DNA of 40,993 nucleotides, taken from the NCBI GenBank assembly GCA_947627955.1, contig CANQXZ010000009.1:1-40993 (forward strand), in the 5' to 3' direction. The DNA comes from an uncultured Clostridia bacterium. GTDB taxonomy: Bacteria > Bacillota > Clostridia > Christensenellales > Borkfalkiaceae. The notes beneath the pieces are model-generated. The model had not been told where the DNA came from. It was given only the letters and a program-made list of their open reading frames with translations, and did no database searches. A program made the translations under genes and the position numbers. Positions 2,014 to 40,993 of the stretch are shown here, piece by piece; positions within the stretch are counted from its first letter, which is position 1, and each line of letters opens with the position of its first letter.

Positions 2014-5000
2014 TTACTGATTAGTAAGATTTATATCCTTGAACACCGTTCCAACGCATACTTCAACATCATTGAATTTAACGATATAGGATACTGTAAC
2101 TCTGCCGGACGATGCTGACGTTTTAGTTCTATCGGTTTTTATATTTGTAACAGTGAATGTTCCGCTCCCCGTTATTTCTCCTGCTGATTTGCTTTTCGAT
2201 TTATCTGCTGCGCTGAAATCAAACGAGGCAGAAGTTTTAAATGAGTTTATTATACTGTCTGCACCGTAAAAAGTTAGTTCCATGGAAACGTTGCTAAAAG
2301 TATAGGTATAATAAGTTTCCCAAATAAATTTTGTGGAATCATAACTTCCATTTCCTTCTACCGTTGCCCTGATCCACACGGCGTGGAGTTCCATTTCGGC
2401 GAGTTTTTCTATGCCGTTCACATTGCATAGATTGACGACCTTTTGCCAACCGCCGTCGGGATTATCATAGTACCAGCCGAGGAACGTATAGCCCGCAGAT
2501 TTTACATTGGAGAGAACGTAGCCTGAGGACATATATGCCTCGCGCAGATAGACGTTTTCCGAATAGCCGGATACGCCCGAAACCGCTTTGGCGCCGGTTA
2601 AAGGCGCGGCACTGTATAACTTTAACGTGAGCTTGGGCATATACTTTGCGCACACCCTATAACCGCCGTCAACATATTCGGGAGTCTGCCATACGAGCGT
2701 ATAACCCTGCTTTTCATATGCGGATATGTCGGGATAGCTGAATTTGGTATATACGGAATTAGTTTTGACATTGCGGAGAACGCTTTGCAAAGACCCGCAT
2801 TGTACCAAAATTTCCGACGAAGCGGGGTCGATATCGCTCTTTACATAGAAGTCTGCGGAAACCTCCTCGTATTTCAAGTCGGAAGTCATGTTGCCGCCGC
2901 CGTCGAGAACAAATTCGAGATATCTGTTACCCGTTTCGTCGAGCAATATGTCCCAATCTACTATGTTTATTATTTCTTCTGGAGTTGCGCCTCCGACCCA
3001 ACCGCACACGTACTTTTGAGGGTCGTTTTCAAGCATATCTTCGTGCGTGACCTTATCTGTCTCGTCAAGCCAATTCTGTTGGGGATTGCCATATGTGAAT
3101 ACGTTTTTGTCGCCCGAAAGAGTTATATCGACCATACCCGCAACGGACATATTCGCATCAAGGCTCAGTGATTTTGCAACGTATATCGTTTCGCCGTTCT
3201 GCGTTTCGGCAGTTGCGCCGAGTTTTAACGTTACGTCGCCGAGATAGTTTATAAGTCCCGCGCCGTTCAAAACTATCGTCCACTCCGCGCCGTCTTTTGA
3301 ATAATTTGTTTGAAGAGACTTGAAGTATGTTTCCAATTGCGTGCCATAGTCCTGTTTGGGCTTTGCCTCGTTATTGCCTGACATATCTATCTTGCCCAAA
3401 ACGTTCATTACGGTATCGCTGAAATTGAGGATAAATCCTATATGGTTCATTATATCCGCCGTAAATTCGCTTGCGGGAAGCGCGCGGTAAACCGTCTGTC
3501 CGCCCGAAGTTCTCTTAATATAGAGCATGCCGGAATTCATTCCGTAGCTTATATCCACGTCAGTATCGGCTTTAATAACGTTTATCGGAATAATATATCC
3601 TAATTTTGCATCCGTCTTGTCAATATGCAAGCGTATATTGAGCGATATATCGTTTTTGTGCGCGCCGCCATTGGCGTTTTCGACGAATGCATTGTCAAGC
3701 GTTACCGAAACGCCCTTAACGTCCACATTTAAATCGGCTTTAACAAGTCCTATTACGTTCAGATTAACGTTCAACGTTCCCTTTAAGAAGAACGTATCGT
3801 TTATAACGTACTGCTTTTTAACTTCGGGATTGCCAGAAACCACGCCCGAACCCATTTCCACCTTATGTGTGGCTGCGTTCACGAGCGTTTCCAACAGCGT
3901 GTCGATGCCGCGGAGGTCGTAATACCCCTCGAGGGAAGCGGCTTTTGTCACCTCGCCGTAGCCTATCGCCGTGACGAAGTTTTCAAGCGTTTCGGTGTAA
4001 TTTTCCGTGACCGCAACTCCGTCGTCGCCGTAAGTTTCGCTCTTGCCGTCCTTTATCTTAGCCCTGTCGAGGGTGAGCCCCGTTATGCGGCTTTCGCCGT
4101 CCTTTGAAAGTTTTACCGCAGTACCGCCCGCGACTGCTTTCAGCTCCGTTACGCCCTCTGCCGTGGAAATTTCGAGCCCCTCTATGCCGCCAAGACGCGC
4201 CCTGTTTGAGGTGAGTTTTTCGCTTCCGCCCTCTTTGACTTCGGGTGAGCCCTCTGCGGCGTTGCCCAAGCCAGCCAAAAAGCCGTTGAGCTTCTCAGAA
4301 AGGTTTCCGCCCATAAAGCTCTCGAGAATGCTCGAGCCGAGCGAGGAGAACCTGTCTTTGGAGTTGTGCAGATACTTATCCACAAGCATCTGGTCGGCTA
4401 CGGAAGCTACCTTGCCGATTATGCCGTTCACCGCTTCTGCTACGGTGGGGTCTATGCCCTCTCCGCCCGTCTTTACAGAGCCGAGGTCGAGCATAGCCAC
4501 GGCTGCGGACGCCACCGTCATTATCTCCTCCACGGGGGCGTATATCTTTGCGGGCTGTGACACCACTTCCAAGCCGTTTTCGTCGGTATATTGCTGCGCA
4601 ATGCGCCCTATCGACATGTATACGTCCAGCTTGCCGTCCGACGAGAGCGCCGCGCCCGTGGTCTTGCCGCCGCTGACTTCGGGATCGCCGTCGAAGATAT
4701 AGATATCGAAGAGCACGCTGTCCTCTTCGGGCAGGGTGGAGATCATATTCACGGCTATGTGGGCGTACATATCGGGGGATATCCAAAGATTATAGCTCTT
4801 TTCGCCGTCTCCGCCCTGAGAAATTTCGAGATGCACGGGATAGTCCGAGCCCTGAACGTACTCGAATTTGCCGTTGAAGTTGTACTTTACGCTCTCTTTT
4901 TCGGCGTATTTCGTCTCGGTGCTGGTCACTTTGCCCGAAAGGTCTACCGTGAACCTGTCTTTCGCGAGCAGTTCCACCGCGCCGCCGATAAAGTCGAGCG

Positions 5001-8000
5001 CCTCAGCGGCGTCCGCGGCGGTGAGGGGCTTCTCGGGCATGAAGTTCTCCGCGGGGAGCACGTCGGGGGAAGTTCTGAGGCGGATATCCTCTATACCCAC
5101 CGCGAACGAGGATGTGGAGAGCTCGGCGCCGACCGCGCCCGTCTCCTTATCCCTGTATATATCAACGTTGAAACCGCTGAAAGATATGCGTATTATGCCC
5201 CTCTGCGTTTCGGAACTTGCCACCGCGCCGAAATCGACGGAGGTTATGAGTTTCCATATGCTGTCGGGCGAGAGCTCCTTCACGGCGGAGACTATCTCGG
5301 AGACGCCGTCCAAGACCGAGCTGCCCTCCCCTGCGGAGAGACCGAGCTCCTTAAAGCGGGCTTTGAGCTCCTCAATATCCTTTGCGGGTTGGAGTATCCT
5401 GCCGTCCGCCGAGGAAGTATCCGTAGCTATCGTGTTCACGACGTCCGCTATGCGGTTATAGAGCGCGACGAGCGCGGCGGTGAGGGTCTTTACGTCGTCC
5501 GAAGGCTCCGTGCCGCCCTCCGCCGTCTTTACATTTGCGAGGTTGAGCTGTACGCCCGCGCCGCTTTCCGCCGAGCCGTACGCCACGTTCAGAATATCGT
5601 CCTTATAGTGGGCGTAGATATCGTGGCGGGAAGAGCCCACCGTCACGCGCGCGTCGAGGCTGAACTCCAAGCCCGCGCTCCAATCGATGGAGAAGTCCAC
5701 TATGTCGGCGGTTATCTCTTCTCCCGCTATGCTGAGGCGCGCCCTGCCCGAAAGTCCGAGCCCGCCGTTTTCCACTATATCGGATATCGTGCCCACGAGA
5801 GGGAACACGTCGTCCGCGGAGAGTTCCACCGTCCCCGAGGGCAGTTTGCACGCGGCAAACGCACCTAAATCTGCGTTTTTGAGGGAAATTTCCGCCTTGC
5901 CGATCTTCAGATTGAGGGTGAGGGGCAGCACTGCGTCCTTTCCGCCGTCAAGCTCGGCTTGCACGTCGCCGAAAGTCAGCGCGAGGTTGCCCGCCCCGTT
6001 GCGGGACAGCGTGAGTTTTTCAAGCAGTTTGCCTATGTTCTGTAAGCCGCCGCTCTTTTCGCCCGCTTTATCGCCCGAACCGCCTCCGAAGAGGGAGCCG
6101 AGCCCTTCCTTTATCTCCGCGAAGGCGGGAAGCCCGCCCTCCACGGGAATGAGCCCCGCTATCTCGTCGTACACTTCCCCGAATCCGTCCAAATCGCTCT
6201 TTATGAGCACATTGTCATAGACGAGGGAAAGAACGCCGTCCGCGTATTCTATATATATGTCGCGCGAGGAGGGAACGCTCTTTGCGCCCGTGCCGCTCAC
6301 CGTGAGCGAGGCGTGCATGAACACATAGGGCTTATACACGGCTTTTGCGCCGCTTCCCTCTCTCCACCTTATGCCGATATTGTCGATCGCAACGCCCACG
6401 AGGGTATCGCCTATCGCCGCCGAGACGTCGCCCGTAAGGGATATGCCGCCCGACTGCACGGCGGGAACGAGCGCCTCCAACAGTGCGGAGATCTTCTCCG
6501 CGCCCGTAAAGTACTGCGTGCCTGCGGGAGCCGACGCGCCCGCGGGGTCGTAGCTCTCCACCGTGACGTCGCCCGTAAGCGAGAACTTTTCTCCCTTATA
6601 TACGGGCTTTACGGTAAGTAGCGCCGTGCCGTCCGCCGCGACGTTTATCAGCTCGAGGGAGAGCCCCTTGTACGCCACGGCAAGGTTGCCGTTTGCGCCC
6701 TTTTCAAAGGAGAGCCCGCCTATCAGCTTTTCTATCTTCGCGACTAAACCGCCGTCGTCCTCGTCGCCGTTCTTGTTGCCCCTTATAAGACCCGCTATGC
6801 TGCCGAGAGGGAGCTCCGCGGGGAGCTTCTGTTCGCCTGCCGCGCCGTTCACTTCCGCGGCGACAGCCGAATACAGCTTGCCGAAGGACTCCAACAGCCC
6901 CGCAAGCCCCTCGGACGACGCCGTGATCCCCGTGCCGTCGTACGCTATCCCGGCAACGCCATTCCCGTAGGAGAGATATACGTCCTTCTGCGCGCATTTC
7001 GCGTTGCCGTCGCCGTCCTTGCCAGCGGGCAGGGATATTGTGGCGGCGAGCTTGACGTCAAGCCCTTCCGCAAAGGAGACGGAGAGATTTTTCACGTCTA
7101 TCTTCAAGGCGAAACCGCCTATATCGAGGGCAATTTCGCCCCGCGCGGTGACGCCGCCCGCCTTTACGGCTTCCGCCGCCCCGTCGAGAAGGGGAACGAG
7201 GGAGTCCGCCGCGAACCATTTGATATCTTCATAGCCCTCGGGCGTGAGGGGGTCGGCATAGCCGTCTATCTGCACGTTTTCGGCGCTGAGGGAGATCTTA
7301 TTTCCCGAATAGCCGAGCGAGAGGGAAACGCCGCCCTCCGCGGGACATGTTATGGTGACGGTAACGCCGCCTATCTTTATCGTTGTGCCGCCGTCGCCGC
7401 CGCTTATTTCGAGCGCAGCCAATATCTCGGGCAGACTGAATATGTCCGAGAGCGAGCCGCCGTTATCCTGCCCGTCATCTCCGCCGGCCTGTTTGCCCGT
7501 GGCGGCGTAATATACCTTTTCGGCGGAACCGATAAGCCGTGAAAGCCCGTCGGGATCGGCTGTCGCGCCCACGCCGCCGTAGCTCAGCTTTGCGCCGCCG
7601 TCGCCGTACGCGAGGGTGACCGTCTTTTCAGAGCCGCCCACCGAGATTACTCCGCTGAGGAACGCCTGCAAGCCGTTCTCCCAGCCGAGGGAGAGCCTCT
7701 TTATGTCGAGGGAGAGCTCCGCGCCGAACGCGTTGAGGGACGCGGCCCCCTTTACGGAGAGCCCCTTGCTGCGCACTATTTCCGCTATCTTGGAGGCTAT
7801 TTCAGCCGCGTCGGGCGCGCCCGCATATCCAGAGACGTCGGCTTCGTACTTGCCGTCGCCCGTTATGCGCGCATTGAGCCCGAGGACGGAAAGACCTATC
7901 TGTCCGCCGCCCGTGGTGACGGTTATCTTCCCGGGCTTTATCTTGCTTTCGGGCTTGAACGCCTTTATGAGCGCGTCCCCGTCTATGGTTATCGTGCCGT

Positions 8001-9984
8001 CGGCGGAGAGAGCGAACGCCGAGGCGAAATTTTCGTCGGTTATGAGCTTGGAGAGGATATTTCCCAGACCTATCTTTTCAACGAGGGAGACAAGCGTGGA
8101 AACTATTCCGTCCGCACCGCTCCCGCCTTCCTCGGAGAAGAGCGCCAATACGTCCTTTTTGGACAGCCTGAACATGGCGGGCGCGCTCCCCTTTGAAGCC
8201 AGCGACAGATAGACGTTTTCACCGTCGTAAACGGCGTCTACCGATTTATCCACGGAATTTTTCAGCGCGGAGGTTATTTCCACGCCCAAGTCGAGGGCGA
8301 AGCCGTCCTTTATCCTTATGTCTGCGGCGCCCGTTGCGGTAATGCCGCCGCCCGTATAGCCTATCTCAGCCCTCAGGCAGTCCGAAGCCGCGAGCGCGGC
8401 GATCCCGCCCGCGTCCACAGCCGTATAGCCCGCGATTTCCGCGGCGGAGAGCGCGGGGACCTTGTCTTCCGTCATGCGGAGCTCCGCTTCCACGCCCGCG
8501 CCGAGCAGGGAGGCGACTTCCGCCTTTACGCTGCCGAGGGTGACTTCCTTCCCTTCGCCTATGTCAAACGCGAAGATAAGCCGCGCTTTGAGCCCCTCGT
8601 CCCCGTCGCCGAGTATCTTGCCCCAATCGGTATCGCCGCCTGAAAGACCTCCGAGCAGTTTGCCTATATCCAGCGTGGAATCGAGAGAGGCGTGCGCGCC
8701 GTCTTCCGACAGCGTGAATTCGCCCGCGCCCAATTCGGTCACGAGCGCGGCTATGGGGTCCTCGCCCTCGTCAGACGCGGCTGCCGCTCCGCCTTGGAAC
8801 GCCGAAAGGTCCAGCGAGGCTTTGAGACCGCCGCCGTACGATATGTAGAGGATGTTGTTGCCGTCCTCTTTGCGCACGTATAATTTTAAGTTGCCCACGT
8901 CCGCGCGTATGTCCGTATTGCCTATATCGAGGGTGACGAGCCCGTGCGCGGCTGCGCCGTCCGCCGTGAGGTCAACGCTGAGGTTTGCCTCTCCTTCGAG
9001 GAGGGGCGAGAACGCCTCCGCAAGGCAGTCCGCGACGGTGAGGGGTTTATCCTCCTCGGGCGCGGCGAAGTTGCCGACGTAATCCTTGAAATAGCTGTCG
9101 TATACGTCGTTTGTGGCGAGCTCCTCGTTGCCGTAGGTGTACTCTGTGTGCCCCGTGCCCGTGCAGGTCGCCTTTATGCCCTTGTCCGCAACGTACATCT
9201 CCTCCGAGTCGAGGGCGAGCACCCTCCACTCGCTGTCGAAGGTGTACGTCACGGTCACATAGTCGTATTGGGGGAGCCCCGCGAGCCCGCCCGTCACCGC
9301 CATCTGCTGCCTGTAATAGTAGACGGCGCAGTTCTCGTCGGGCGATTGCGCGGGGTTCAAGTGGAAGGTCTGCGTATATGTGCCGTCGCCGTTGTCGGTG
9401 ACGTCGGTGCAGTCCAGCACGGTGTTTTCGTTTATTACGTACACGGAAAATTCCGTGGGCGGGAACCCGCGGTTTACCTTATATTCCGAGATCTCCATGC
9501 CCGCGGGAACGACGTCGGGCCATGCGGTGTTCATGCCGTTGAATTTGCCCGCGTCCCCCTCTTCGCGCCACAGCACCACGCCGTCCGCCACGCAGAATTG
9601 GGTGGCGGTGTTCAGAAGGGAGCTCGTGCTTATGTCCGCGGACACGAGCACGCCGTCATGGAACTGCTTATAGGTCTCCACCACCTGAGGGGCGGCGGAG
9701 TTGGAAACGCCGCCGTGCATCTCGGAGTACCAGAAGGGCTCCTGTTGGAGGCGCCAATTCATGTAGCCTATGTTCTCTATGCCCGTGTGGTCGGTGGGCA
9801 GACTGCCGTCCGAGGGAGCCTCGAAACACACCGTGGCATAGCCCTTATCCTCGAGGGGGGCTATGTCTACCTTTCTGAAAAACACGAGCCATACTATCAC
9901 CGAACCCGCCACTCCCGCGGCGAGCAGTACGGAAACTATCGGAAGTATTATCGCCAACTTCTTTTTGGCGCCTAACTTTGCCAT
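2014..9984 (-). CDS. Giant membrane-anchored repeat protein (2656 aa), function unknown
   Basis: I do not recognise this protein. Residues 1-8 are basic and about 9-36 form one hydrophobic helix, so it is probably tethered by its N-terminus with the rest outside; there is no LPXTG motif. Residues 40-310 are a non-repeated region. From about 310 to 1550 a beta-rich unit recurs: a glycine-rich strand pattern of the type LxIGGxxxxxxIxNLSV, then a marker of the type KDVYLSYGNGxxxIxYDG, then a helical segment such as GLAGLLESFGKLY. Marker segments fall near residues 378, 590, 795, 1001, 1248 and 1458, a period of roughly 205-245. Later repeats diverge. Near 2495-2535 is one copy like the InlB/Flg_new surface repeat (YTFLGWYYDNPDGGW). 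Regular LolA/LppX-like or AsmA-like beta sheets are possible but unproven. The last ~630 codons are much less GC-rich than the rest. Own promoter, own terminator. Confidence 0.85.
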   Translation of the reverse strand: MAKLGAKKKLAIILPIVSVLLAAGVAGSVIVWLVFFRKVDIAPLEDKGYATVCFEAPSDGSLPTDHTGIENIGYMNWRLQQEPFWYSEMHGGVSNSAAPQVVETYKQFHDGVLVSADISTSSLLNTATQFCVADGVVLWREEGDAGKFNGMNTAWPDVVPAGMEISEYKVNRGFPPTEFSVYVINENTVLDCTDVTDNGDGTYTQTFHLNPAQSPDENCAVYYYRQQMAVTGGLAGLPQYDYVTVTYTFDSEWRVLALDSEEMYVADKGIKATCTGTGHTEYTYGNEELATNDVYDSYFKDYVGNFAAPEEDKPLTVADCLAEAFSPLLEGEANLSVDLTADGAAAHGLVTLDIGNTDIRADVGNLKLYVRKEDGNNILYISYGGGLKASLDLSAFQGGAAAASDEGEDPIAALVTELGAGEFTLSEDGAHASLDSTLDIGKLLGGLSGGDTDWGKILGDGDEGLKARLIFAFDIGEGKEVTLGSVKAEVASLLGAGVEAELRMTEDKVPALSAAEIAGYTAVDAGGIAALAASDCLRAEIGYTGGGITATGAADIRIKDGFALDLGVEITSALKNSVDKSVDAVYDGENVYLSLASKGSAPAMFRLSKKDVLALFSEEGGSGADGIVSTLVSLVEKIGLGNILSKLITDENFASAFALSADGTITIDGDALIKAFKPESKIKPGKITVTTGGGQIGLSVLGLNARITGDGKYEADVSGYAGAPDAAEIASKIAEIVRSKGLSVKGAASLNAFGAELSLDIKRLSLGWENGLQAFLSGVISVGGSEKTVTLAYGDGGAKLSYGGVGATADPDGLSRLIGSAEKVYYAATGKQAGGDDGQDNGGSLSDIFSLPEILAALEISGGDGGTTIKIGGVTVTITCPAEGGVSLSLGYSGNKISLSAENVQIDGYADPLTPEGYEDIKWFAADSLVPLLDGAAEAVKAGGVTARGEIALDIGGFALKIDVKNLSVSFAEGLDVKLAATISLPAGKDGDGNAKCAQKDVYLSYGNGVAGIAYDGTGITASSEGLAGLLESFGKLYSAVAAEVNGAAGEQKLPAELPLGSIAGLIRGNKNGDEDDGGLVAKIEKLIGGLSFEKGANGNLAVAYKGLSLELINVAADGTALLTVKPVYKGEKFSLTGDVTVESYDPAGASAPAGTQYFTGAEKISALLEALVPAVQSGGISLTGDVSAAIGDTLVGVAIDNIGIRWREGSGAKAVYKPYVFMHASLTVSGTGAKSVPSSRDIYIEYADGVLSLVYDNVLIKSDLDGFGEVYDEIAGLIPVEGGLPAFAEIKEGLGSLFGGGSGDKAGEKSGGLQNIGKLLEKLTLSRNGAGNLALTFGDVQAELDGGKDAVLPLTLNLKIGKAEISLKNADLGAFAACKLPSGTVELSADDVFPLVGTISDIVENGGLGLSGRARLSIAGEEITADIVDFSIDWSAGLEFSLDARVTVGSSRHDIYAHYKDDILNVAYGSAESGAGVQLNLANVKTAEGGTEPSDDVKTLTAALVALYNRIADVVNTIATDTSSADGRILQPAKDIEELKARFKELGLSAGEGSSVLDGVSEIVSAVKELSPDSIWKLITSVDFGAVASSETQRGIIRISFSGFNVDIYRDKETGAVGAELSTSSFAVGIEDIRLRTSPDVLPAENFMPEKPLTAADAAEALDFIGGAVELLAKDRFTVDLSGKVTSTETKYAEKESVKYNFNGKFEYVQGSDYPVHLEISQGGDGEKSYNLWISPDMYAHIAVNMISTLPEEDSVLFDIYIFDGDPEVSGGKTTGAALSSDGKLDVYMSIGRIAQQYTDENGLEVVSQPAKIYAPVEEIMTVASAAVAMLDLGSVKTGGEGIDPTVAEAVNGIIGKVASVADQMLVDKYLHNSKDRFSSLGSSILESFMGGNLSEKLNGFLAGLGNAAEGSPEVKEGGSEKLTSNRARLGGIEGLEISTAEGVTELKAVAGGTAVKLSKDGESRITGLTLDRAKIKDGKSETYGDDGVAVTENYTETLENFVTAIGYGEVTKAASLEGYYDLRGIDTLLETLVNAATHKVEMGSGVVSGNPEVKKQYVINDTFFLKGTLNVNLNVIGLVKADLNVDVKGVSVTLDNAFVENANGGAHKNDISLNIRLHIDKTDAKLGYIIPINVIKADTDVDISYGMNSGMLYIKRTSGGQTVYRALPASEFTADIMNHIGFILNFSDTVMNVLGKIDMSGNNEAKPKQDYGTQLETYFKSLQTNYSKDGAEWTIVLNGAGLINYLGDVTLKLGATAETQNGETIYVAKSLSLDANMSVAGMVDITLSGDKNVFTYGNPQQNWLDETDKVTHEDMLENDPQKYVCGWVGGATPEEIINIVDWDILLDETGNRYLEFVLDGGGNMTSDLKYEEVSADFYVKSDIDPASSEILVQCGSLQSVLRNVKTNSVYTKFSYPDISAYEKQGYTLVWQTPEYVDGGYRVCAKYMPKLTLKLYSAAPLTGAKAVSGVSGYSENVYLREAYMSSGYVLSNVKSAGYTFLGWYYDNPDGGWQKVVNLCNVNGIEKLAEMELHAVWIRATVEGNGSYDSTKFIWETYYTYTFSNVSMELTFYGADSIINSFKTSASFDFSAADKSKSKSAGEITGSGTFTVTNIKTDRTKTSASSGRVTVSYIVKFNDVEVCVGTVFKDINLTNQ

Positions 9985-34271: not shown

Positions 34272-34300
34272 TTGACAATTAAAATTATATTTTATATAAT
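34272..34300 (+). promoter_or_regulatory. Perfect consensus promoter of the tRNA-Arg locus
   Basis: TTGACA (34272-34277), exactly 17 nt, TATAAT (34295-34300). It points at the tRNA 5' fragments and, 223 nt further, the intact tRNA-Arg. I find no convincing promoter between 34370 and 34523. Confidence 0.85.
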
Positions 34301-34305
34301 ATGTT

Positions 34306-34366
34306 CACTGTCAGCCAAATGCTATGCGCTGTCAGCTCAATATGCGCTGTCAGCTCAATTGGATAG
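34306..34366 (+). repeat. Three tandem fragments of the tRNA-Arg 5' end
   Basis: An 18-nt unit tatgcgctgtcagctcaa occurs twice in a row (34323-34340, 34341-34358); the second copy continues with ttggatag. A more decayed copy (cactgtcagccaa) precedes them at 34306-34318. The intact tRNA-Arg begins gcgctgttagctcaattgg, so these are truncated copies of its acceptor strand and D-arm. Confidence 0.85.
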
Positions 34367-34501
34367 TGCGACGAGCGCGGATTTCTCAAAACAGCCTAGT
34401 AGCGCTGTTTTGCCGCGCGAGATGAGCTTGCGCATTCGCAAGGCGCAAGCGGTGACCGAGGCAACGGGCTCTCCTTGCCGTTGCCGAGAGGTCTACGAAA
34501 C
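34367..34501 (+). repeat. Dispersed structured repeat, member B, next to tRNA-Arg
   Basis: Begins in the D-loop of the last tRNA fragment. Contains cgacgagcg (34369-34377), hairpin aaaacagc/gctgtttt (34388-34411), gagcttgcgca (34424-34434), a left arm GCTTGCGC that can pair either with CGCAAG (34437-34442) or with GCGCAAGC (34443-34450), the core aaggcgcaagcggtgac, and hairpin GGCAACGG/CCGTTGCC (34460-34485). It ends in GGTCTACGAAAC (34490-34501), which mimics the anticodon arm GGTCTACGGAAC of the intact tRNA. No coding frame. Confidence 0.75.
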
Positions 34502-34522: not shown

Positions 34523-34599
34523 GCGCTGTTAGCTCAATTGGATAGAGCGTTGGTCTACGGAACCAAAGGCTGGGGATTCGAGCTCCTCACGGCGCGCCA
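34523..34599 (+). tRNA. tRNA-Arg(ACG)
   Basis: Complete cloverleaf: acceptor gcgctgt/acggcgc with one G-T pair, D-stem gctc/gagc, anticodon stem ttggt/accaa around ctacgga (anticodon ACG, read with inosine for CGU/CGC/CGA), 5-nt variable loop, T-arm with TTCGAGC loop, G discriminator, and encoded CCA. It is followed 4 nt later by a terminator. Confidence 0.96.
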
Positions 34600-34640: not shown

Positions 34641-34742
34641 GCCGCCGTTCGTCGGGTCGTCTTCATAACGCGATTGACGCGTAGCGTAACAATCGCTACT
34701 CCGTCGCGCTGTGTGCTCCTTACGAGCCCTCACGGCGTACCA
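34641..34742 (-). repeat. Possible inverted member D of the dispersed repeat, with tRNA-Arg 3' fragment
   Basis: Read on the minus strand, AAGGAGCACACAGCGCGACGGAG aligns in pieces with AAGGCGCA-AGCGGTGACCGAG of member B, and CCCGACGAA matches member A; a gcgattg/caatcgc stem is internal. On the plus strand 34724-34742 reads gagccctcacggcgtacca, close to the 3' end of tRNA-Arg (gagctcctcacggcgcgcca). The similarity is patchy, so family membership is less certain than for B and C. Confidence 0.45.
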
Positions 34743-40905: not shown

Positions 40906-40993
40906 GGGGATATGGCTCATTTAGTACGACGAGCGAGCCATTTCATAGCACAGCACAGTGCGCTGTGCGTGGCGAGCGAGACGAGCTTGCGCA
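40906..40993 (+). repeat. tRNA-like 5' end joined to dispersed repeat member C (runs off the window)
   Basis: 40906-40925 reads like a tRNA acceptor strand and D-arm (ggggata, tg, gctc...). It is joined to cgacgagcg (40927-40935), a hairpin gcacagc/gctgtgc (40948-40968), and gagcttgcgca (40983-40993). The same words occur in the same order and spacing in member B (cgacgagcg to gagcttgcgca: 55 nt there, 56 nt here). The element is cut by the end of the window. Confidence 0.7.

Follow-up and report, generated by a model that had tools for sequence, protein, structure and literature searches.

A dispersed repeat of ~120 bp, here denoted R-B, recurs in the genome of an uncultured Clostridia bacterium and its relatives. 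R-B is a real, mobile three-hairpin repeat with a precise, recurrent site at a tRNA junction in a minority of its copies, and it is a newly described family of small structured repeats. The hairpins are separated by the conserved linkers GACGAG, GAGAYGAG and CGGTGACCGAG, and the repeat ends in GAGA. The window, that is, the whole stretch of DNA analysed (40,993 nt), is the entire contig C9 of this genome (G000; 1.65 Mb in 74 contigs), and carries two copies, denoted B and C.

The window locus

The original prediction recognized B behind a truncated tRNA-Arg 5' end and C behind another tRNA-like 5' end. Both placements hold, the second being a tRNA-Ala-like 5' copy (Table 1). The words cgacgagcg and gagcttgcgca are indeed common to B and C at nearly equal spacing. 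Behind B the locus also holds an anticodon-arm remnant and an intact tRNA-Arg, and the element has two more hairpins, none of which the original prediction mentions. Searching the 1.65-Mb genome with an exact gapped pattern returned B, C and one further copy, and the reversed pattern returned none; further copies came from similarity and near-pattern searches. The R1 score of B is by construction, because B is among the ten copies from which this covariance model was built. C itself was not used for the model, although a close relative on contig C57, to which it is 96% identical over 67 nt, is in the training set. The partial tRNA-Arg copy matches the intact gene at 24 of 26 letters, and the leaders of the two copies are identical at 9 of 20 positions. 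By eye, boxes resembling those of the probable promoter in Table 1 also stand before tRNA-Arg in other species. Elsewhere in the window, a 2656-aa ORF on the minus strand (2014-9984) had no Pfam match at E 0.001.

Table 1. Features at the two R-B loci of the window.
Feature	Position	Strand	Basis
Probable promoter of the tRNA-Arg transcript (TTGACA 34272-34277, TATAAT 34295-34300)	34272..34300	+	Read from sequence; upstream of the partial copies
Short extra tandem copy, first 16 nt of the tRNA-Arg copy	34326..34341	+	Read from sequence
Partial tRNA-Arg copy: acceptor 5' strand and D-arm, the gene's first 26 letters, D-stem changed to GTGC	34344..34369	+	
R-B copy B, three hairpins	34370..34488	+	R1, 133.8 bits, E 6.9e-32; in training set
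tRNA-Arg anticodon arm remnant (aggtctacgaaac)	34489..34501	+	GGTCTACGAAAC vs GGTCTACGGAAC
Intact tRNA-Arg (ACG)	34523..34599	+	ARAGORN; Rfam RF00005 59.4 bits
Probable partial copy of the tRNA-Arg 3' end (GAGCCCTCACGGCGTACCA)	34724..34742	+	Resembles the intact gene's GAGCTCCTCACGGCGCGCCA; no adjoining R-B; read from sequence
Partial tRNA-Ala-like copy: acceptor 5' strand and D-arm	40906..40927	+	Read from sequence; cf. tRNA-Ala beside copy L028
R-B copy C, cut by contig end	40928..40993	+	46.2 bits, E 4.3e-9 (40928-40991); outside training set

Structure of the repeat

In the alignment of the ten copies of this genome that make up R1, the order is GACGA, hairpin 1 with an ATTTC internal loop, GAGAYGAG, hairpin 2, CGGTGACCGAG, hairpin 3 with CCTTA in its loop, and GAG. 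The unit boundaries are G/GACGAG...GAG/A. Changes on both sides were found in 17 of the 28 pairs. Four of five covariation measures on these copies were reached by none of 500 shuffles and the fifth by 54 of 500; the structure was drawn on copy B, which gives some bias in its favour, and slid controls were far lower. A set of 53 non-redundant copies contained 1560 Watson-Crick, 13 G-U, 7 A-C, 15 other and 293 G.A/A.G cells, so that 35 non-gap cells are neither Watson-Crick nor G.A/A.G. A partly independent set of 86 copies, in which one subgroup is misaligned in hairpin 1, agrees (2130 Watson-Crick, 165 G.A/A.G and 101 other cells). The many compensatory changes in all three sets uphold the original view of a structured element.

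The G.A cells fall at set positions, as pairs in tandem: the two at the base of hairpin 1 occur in 51 and 53 of 53 copies, the two at the base of hairpin 3 in 50 of 52 copies each. Within hairpins 1 and 2 the G.A pairs are optional and the two adjacent positions change jointly: both are Watson-Crick, both G.A or mixed in 39, 10 and 4 copies, respectively, in hairpin 1, and in 21, 29 and 3 copies in hairpin 2. Three copies (L041, L048, L052) carry a joint change of GACGAG..GAGATGAG to GGCGAG..GAGGTGAG, hinting at a possible contact between the two linkers.

Copies and distribution

The original prediction called for a covariance-model search of this genome and its relatives; this search recovered many copies, with covariation among them. 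R1 found 14 strong copies in this genome, 10 of which are the training copies. Among 61 genomes searched, matches occurred in 30 of 37 of the genus and in none of 24 from other families. Per-genome counts ranged from 0 to at least 60 in the genus and are floors, with at most 60 candidates scored per genome, or only 9 in an order-wide draw. In that draw of 396 genomes, R-B was present in 21 (11 of the same genus, 8 of other genera of the family, 2 elsewhere). Tandem units occur.

Public contigs held at least 118 stretches resembling R-B among the matches listed. R1 confirmed 98 of 100 in one set (exceptions L219 and L234) and 7 of 18 in another, where 10 of the 11 stretches without a match came from unrelated taxa and the remaining one is L250. 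Among the 80 titles listed, those of confirmed contigs name Candidatus Coproplasma and uncultured Clostridia-type MAGs, with a single Alphaproteobacteria contig (L176) that we take to be a binning error.

No Rfam 15 family reached its gathering score on R-B, either in the window or in E-value scans of 11 loci, and a known Rfam family was rejected as its identity. The Rfam search of the window returned two tRNAs only; sub-threshold matches touch some copies (e.g. RsmY, 27.5 bits against a gathering score of 57). Plasmid, phage and viral sequences gave no match to one strict pattern or, otherwise, to copy B as sole query, and an origin from phage, plasmid or virus was set aside on these searches. 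We found no paper naming such a repeat in this group in the open-licence literature.

Mobility and placement

The original prediction of mobility is supported by pairs of copies that share both end points. Among 48 copies of two genomes (G013 and G006), 32 pairs, which are not independent of one another, are at least 95% identical in R-B with unrelated flanks on both sides, and on either side they cease to be identical 1-4 nt beyond the unit. Near-identical copies that end at the same two points in unrelated flanks indicate that R-B moves as its own unit. Only 2 of 103 copies lie inside ORFs of at least 200 aa, against 258 of 515 random places. The two ends, GACGAG and GAGA, are not inverted repeats, and no target-site duplication was seen, both as judged by eye.

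Many copies in G013 and G006 lie within a second structured repeat (CCTTGGCTCCC...GGGAGCTGTC...CTGAGGGG) that is also present in an R-B-free form; many in G013 share the same host repeat and may have moved along with it. Within L066-L100 of these two genomes (e.g. L078, L080, L084) the second repeat reads CCTTGGCTCCC..GGGAGCTGTC..GGTGACTGAGGGGATTG and is, by eye, likely a three-way junction; it occurs at several Clostridia loci and frequently hosts R-B. A third repeat (GTTGCAAGCAGGG...GGTGAATG...CACGGAAAAT) hosts R-B at differing places in L005 (contig C55 of this genome), L008 and L009; an R-B-free copy of it stands just upstream of an ORF that by eye resembles ileS, and part of L005 is weakly T-box-like (41.4 bits, gathering score 93). 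Filled and empty orthologous sites were compared, by eye, for tRNA-Arg: the empty copy, L114, reads GAGC-GTC-GGTCTACGG and the filled form GAGC-[R-B]-GGTCTACGG, filled tRNA copies being ~3 nt short relative to L114.

Partial tRNA copies beside R-B

Across all genomes, R-B directly follows the D-stem of a tRNA 5' copy at 17 sites (11 Arg, 3 Ala-like, 2 Pro and 1 Val; tallied by eye, L115 and L054 being one site). An intact tRNA on the same strand follows at 14 of these, and the other three (C, L067 and L103) are cut by contig ends. An anticodon-arm remnant was seen by eye after R-B at 10 of the 11 tRNA-Arg sites and is masked at the eleventh. The junction, which had been placed in the D-loop, is thus after the 3' strand of the D-stem. 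It had further been proposed that the GAGC of R-B completes the D-stem. Altered D-stems precede R-B in B (TAGTGC), in C (TAGTAC) and at four more sites, but the other 11 of the 17 keep an intact D-stem strand of the tRNA copy itself up to GACGAG (GAGC, or GCGC in tRNA-Pro; tally by eye). The GAGC of R-B is not needed there, so the proposal is not general. In R1 the same GAGC is part of the element's first hairpin.

In this genome, with 37 tRNA hits, a count by eye gave 6 of 13 R-B sites that have both a tRNA gene no more than 300 bp away and a partial tRNA copy. The probability of this is ~2e-8 under uniform placement, ~1e-3 if insertion is limited to an intergenic 15% (an assumed figure) and 0.008 at 10%. 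Among 208 pooled copies, de-duplicated by identical sequence only, a script that misses sites at contig ends scored 21 as adjoining a tRNA with a partial copy. The predicted association with tRNAs stands for this genome and for the 17 sites of identical junction, while only a minority of the pooled copies show it. At the 5' sites R-B lies in the sense strand of the tRNA, and the antisense kind, sought in the scan of pooled copies, was not found.

tRNA-Arg(ACG) was present at 45 places in 43 of 61 genomes, and 30 loci were fetched and read by eye. Six have a partial copy with R-B, six a partial copy without it, two R-B downstream and 14 neither, and two are cut. Partial copies thus exist without R-B, so R-B may be the later arrival. 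Upstream of the intact gene in L108, L122 and L111 are one to three tandem truncated tRNA-Arg 5' copies without R-B, each ending in a hairpin CAAAGGC..GCCTTTG.

Eight R-B sites were scored, and in each 22-25 of the 25 nt of the 5' copy agree with its own tRNA; the differing tRNAs of other species match it less well, and the leaders match at 4-12 of 20. The threshold of 18/25 excluded L117 (15), L123 (17), L109 (masked) and L134 (cut), which were read by eye; L110 (17) was taken to have no copy. The likeness begins 0-5 nt from tRNA nucleotide 1 at most scored loci and 9 nt from it in L127. Over the 28 pairs of eight tRNA-Arg loci, leaving out the SIG420 row and its eight pairs, median identities were 0.88 for the tRNA, 0.80 for the partial 5' copy, 0.72 for R-B, 1.0 for the 12-nt anticodon remnant, 0.56 for the leader and 0.52 upstream. 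Identity of the partial 5' copy ranged from 0.61 to 1.0 across tRNA-Arg loci, and in G020 the 5' half is unrelated. The likeness of partial copies to the tRNA would follow from any of three causes: selection, gene conversion, or copies that arose repeatedly and recently.

R-B is also found downstream of tRNA genes. At 7 of 17 scored places, 11-14 nt of the tRNA 3' region recur before it, exact and inverted, a match reached by none of 200 shuffles each; the other 10 are without a significant inverted copy. A sense copy after R-B was found at 12 of the 17, reached by at most 4 of 200 shuffles. Both kinds occur together at five places: tRNA-Pro (L025), tRNA-Leu (L029 and L203) and tRNA-Ser (L162 and L179). 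At the tRNA-Arg places L136 and L236 the sense copy is present and the inverted copy weak. R-B occupies the variable-loop position in L124 and L136, and in the latter the tRNA-Arg is flanked by R-B on both sides. In L029 (contig C7 of this genome, at ~24.6 kb) a CRISPR-like array follows soon after the copied tRNA-Leu 3' end.

Search for the mover

The search for a parent element covered the Y1, IS110 and reverse transcriptase families. Y1 transposase (PF01797) was found in none of six genomes with at least 14 R-B copies (G000, G002, G006, G013, G015, G016) and does occur in G001, which has 9. IS110 (PF01548) was found in none of 17 genomes searched. The suggestion that R-B is retro-like is not supported: reverse transcriptase PF00078 was not found in this genome (97% complete) and was found in one of nine genomes with at least 14 copies, this genome among the nine, yet in five of seven without R-B hits. 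It may have been lost after R-B spread. In the genomes searched the three families do not track R-B, and RAYT, IS110 and reverse transcriptase were rejected as movers.

Proposed mechanism and alternative explanations

Beyond the observed structure, copy number, unit ends, junction position and partial copies, we think it probable that R-B is a non-autonomous, non-coding mobile family of three hairpins that spreads through intergenic DNA as a precise unit. Its landing sites would themselves form hairpins, a preference judged by eye, and would mostly be other repeats or partial tRNA copies that the cell can spare. Upstream of a tRNA gene the partial 5' copy comes first and R-B begins where the D-stem of that copy ends; the anticodon-arm remnant (for tRNA-Arg), an AT-rich leader and the intact tRNA follow. 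Downstream, where the arrangement is complete, the intact tRNA and a terminator are followed by an inverted T-arm strand copy, then by R-B and the copied tRNA 3' end. As the intact gene keeps the tRNA function, the insertion would be harmless. R-B might be moved in trans by a recombinase or by a single-strand hairpin process, with structure setting the choice of site and selection removing harmful insertions. Several findings speak against this explanation. A neutral landing site would not be expected to keep partial tRNA copies better preserved than the adjoining sequence, as they are; no transposase or recombinase of the families searched is tied to R-B; no target-site duplication was seen; many G013 copies may have travelled with a shared host repeat; and 10 of 17 downstream places show no significant inverted copy.

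Selection might instead act on R-B as an array of single-strand DNA hairpins, comparable to attC sites and HUH elements, rather than on RNA; this is a tentative possibility and is compatible with non-autonomous spread, for which it would be the mechanism. Tandem G.A pairs exist in one strand only, and G-U pairs are rare in the R-B consensus (13 against 1560 Watson-Crick; tRNA stems of the same loci, 69/833). This scarcity, clear against tRNA stems, is gone against terminators: by one greedy procedure for both, G-U made up 30/463 pairs of R-B hairpin 3 (6.5%) and 42/776 of terminators by tRNA genes (5.4%). Because hairpin 3 resembles terminators by the common procedure, the wobble test is undecided between DNA and RNA, and it was dropped as proof of a DNA-level hairpin. 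Energy folding, which freely allows wobble pairs, gave 5.3% for R-B, 9.3% for tRNA and 10.0% for downstream hairpins, figures left unused. The absence of Y1 transposase from the R-B-rich genomes searched also counts against DNA-level selection. Another reading, which we rate as rather unlikely and which could hold together with mobility, makes the partial tRNA and R-B a functional RNA from the tRNA transcript, a natural tRNA scaffold. Its tRNA portion would persist because it serves processing (RNase P, CCA end), stability or folding competition with the intact tRNA. The sense orientation at the 5' sites agrees with it, as do the better preservation of the partial 5' copy and anticodon remnant than of the leader, and, downstream, an inverted copy facing the T-arm strand, which would form a minihelix-like end, with CCA at some places. 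Yet conservation is lower in the partial 5' copy than in the tRNA, G020 has an unrelated 5' half, most pooled copies lie away from tRNAs, nearly half of the tRNA-Arg loci read (14/30) have neither copy nor R-B, and recent local duplication or gene conversion would also keep copies alike. We consider unlikely the combined form, in which R-B at cloverleaf junctions of constrained partial tRNAs (after the D-stem upstream, at the variable-loop position downstream) is a scaffolded RNA released by tRNA processing enzymes and moves by recognition of hairpins, not of sequence.

Elements that integrate at tRNA genes usually leave part of the tRNA duplicated at its 5' or 3' end, and the copies beside R-B could accordingly be attachment repeats left by integrative elements. 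One such element, however, generally carries one attachment sequence, whereas the partial copies match their own local tRNA and involve four tRNA kinds; the gap from R-B to tRNA at the listed 5' sites (30-150 nt) is too small for an integrase, and most R-B copies are away from tRNAs. We regard this origin as very improbable. That R-B is a chance likeness of GC-rich hairpins, or an assembly artefact suggested by the position of C and some other copies at contig ends, is hardly credible: R1 gave E values down to ~1e-31 in non-training genomes, many copies lie inside contigs, and the reversed-pattern control and the shuffle-tested covariation rule out chance resemblance.

Significance

Small structured repeats are common in bacteria. 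R-B combines exact ends with copy numbers that, among species of a single genus, run from none to at least 60. Its host repeats occur both filled and empty, and four kinds of tRNA share one position as a recurrent site; these features together make the question of its movement testable. In addition, tRNA genes of this lineage can be flanked by partial copies that are better conserved than the adjoining sequence, and this suggests that a feature of tRNA transcripts has been overlooked.

Comparison with known systems

REP and REPIN elements are palindromes of 20-40 bp with a tag, GTAG or CGTC, at one end, and the CGTC superfamily is described as having no known transposase (PMC3733652). R-B resembles them as a dispersed extragenic palindrome, and that superfamily also in having no known transposase; the words Firmicutes and Clostridi- do not appear in the main text of that paper (PMC3733652). 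R-B differs from the REP/RAYT system in its ~120 bp and three hairpins and in the absence of Y1 from six R-B-rich genomes.

Mobility sets R-B apart from the tyrT repeats of E. coli (RtT RNA, RF00391), as does its occurrence upstream of tRNAs as well. The tyrT repeats are found downstream of a tRNA and carry a copy of its 3' end; RF00391 was not among the Rfam matches of the window and the scanned R-B loci. ERIC and BOX are structured intergenic repeats of ~100-150 bp, BOX being modular. Compared by description, R-B shares their size, structure and intergenic place, and is likewise modular; we know of no tRNA targeting by ERIC or BOX. The cyanobacterial SDRs of Elhai and colleagues (2008) reportedly contain no genes and insert into other repeats and structured RNA genes. 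Likened by description, they share with R-B the character of very small mobile repeats, whereas R-B has ~120 bp, three hairpins and tandem G.A pairs and belongs to another phylum. Like a MITE, R-B is non-coding, short, multi-copy and intergenic, and we read it as a MITE/SDR-like hairpin element.
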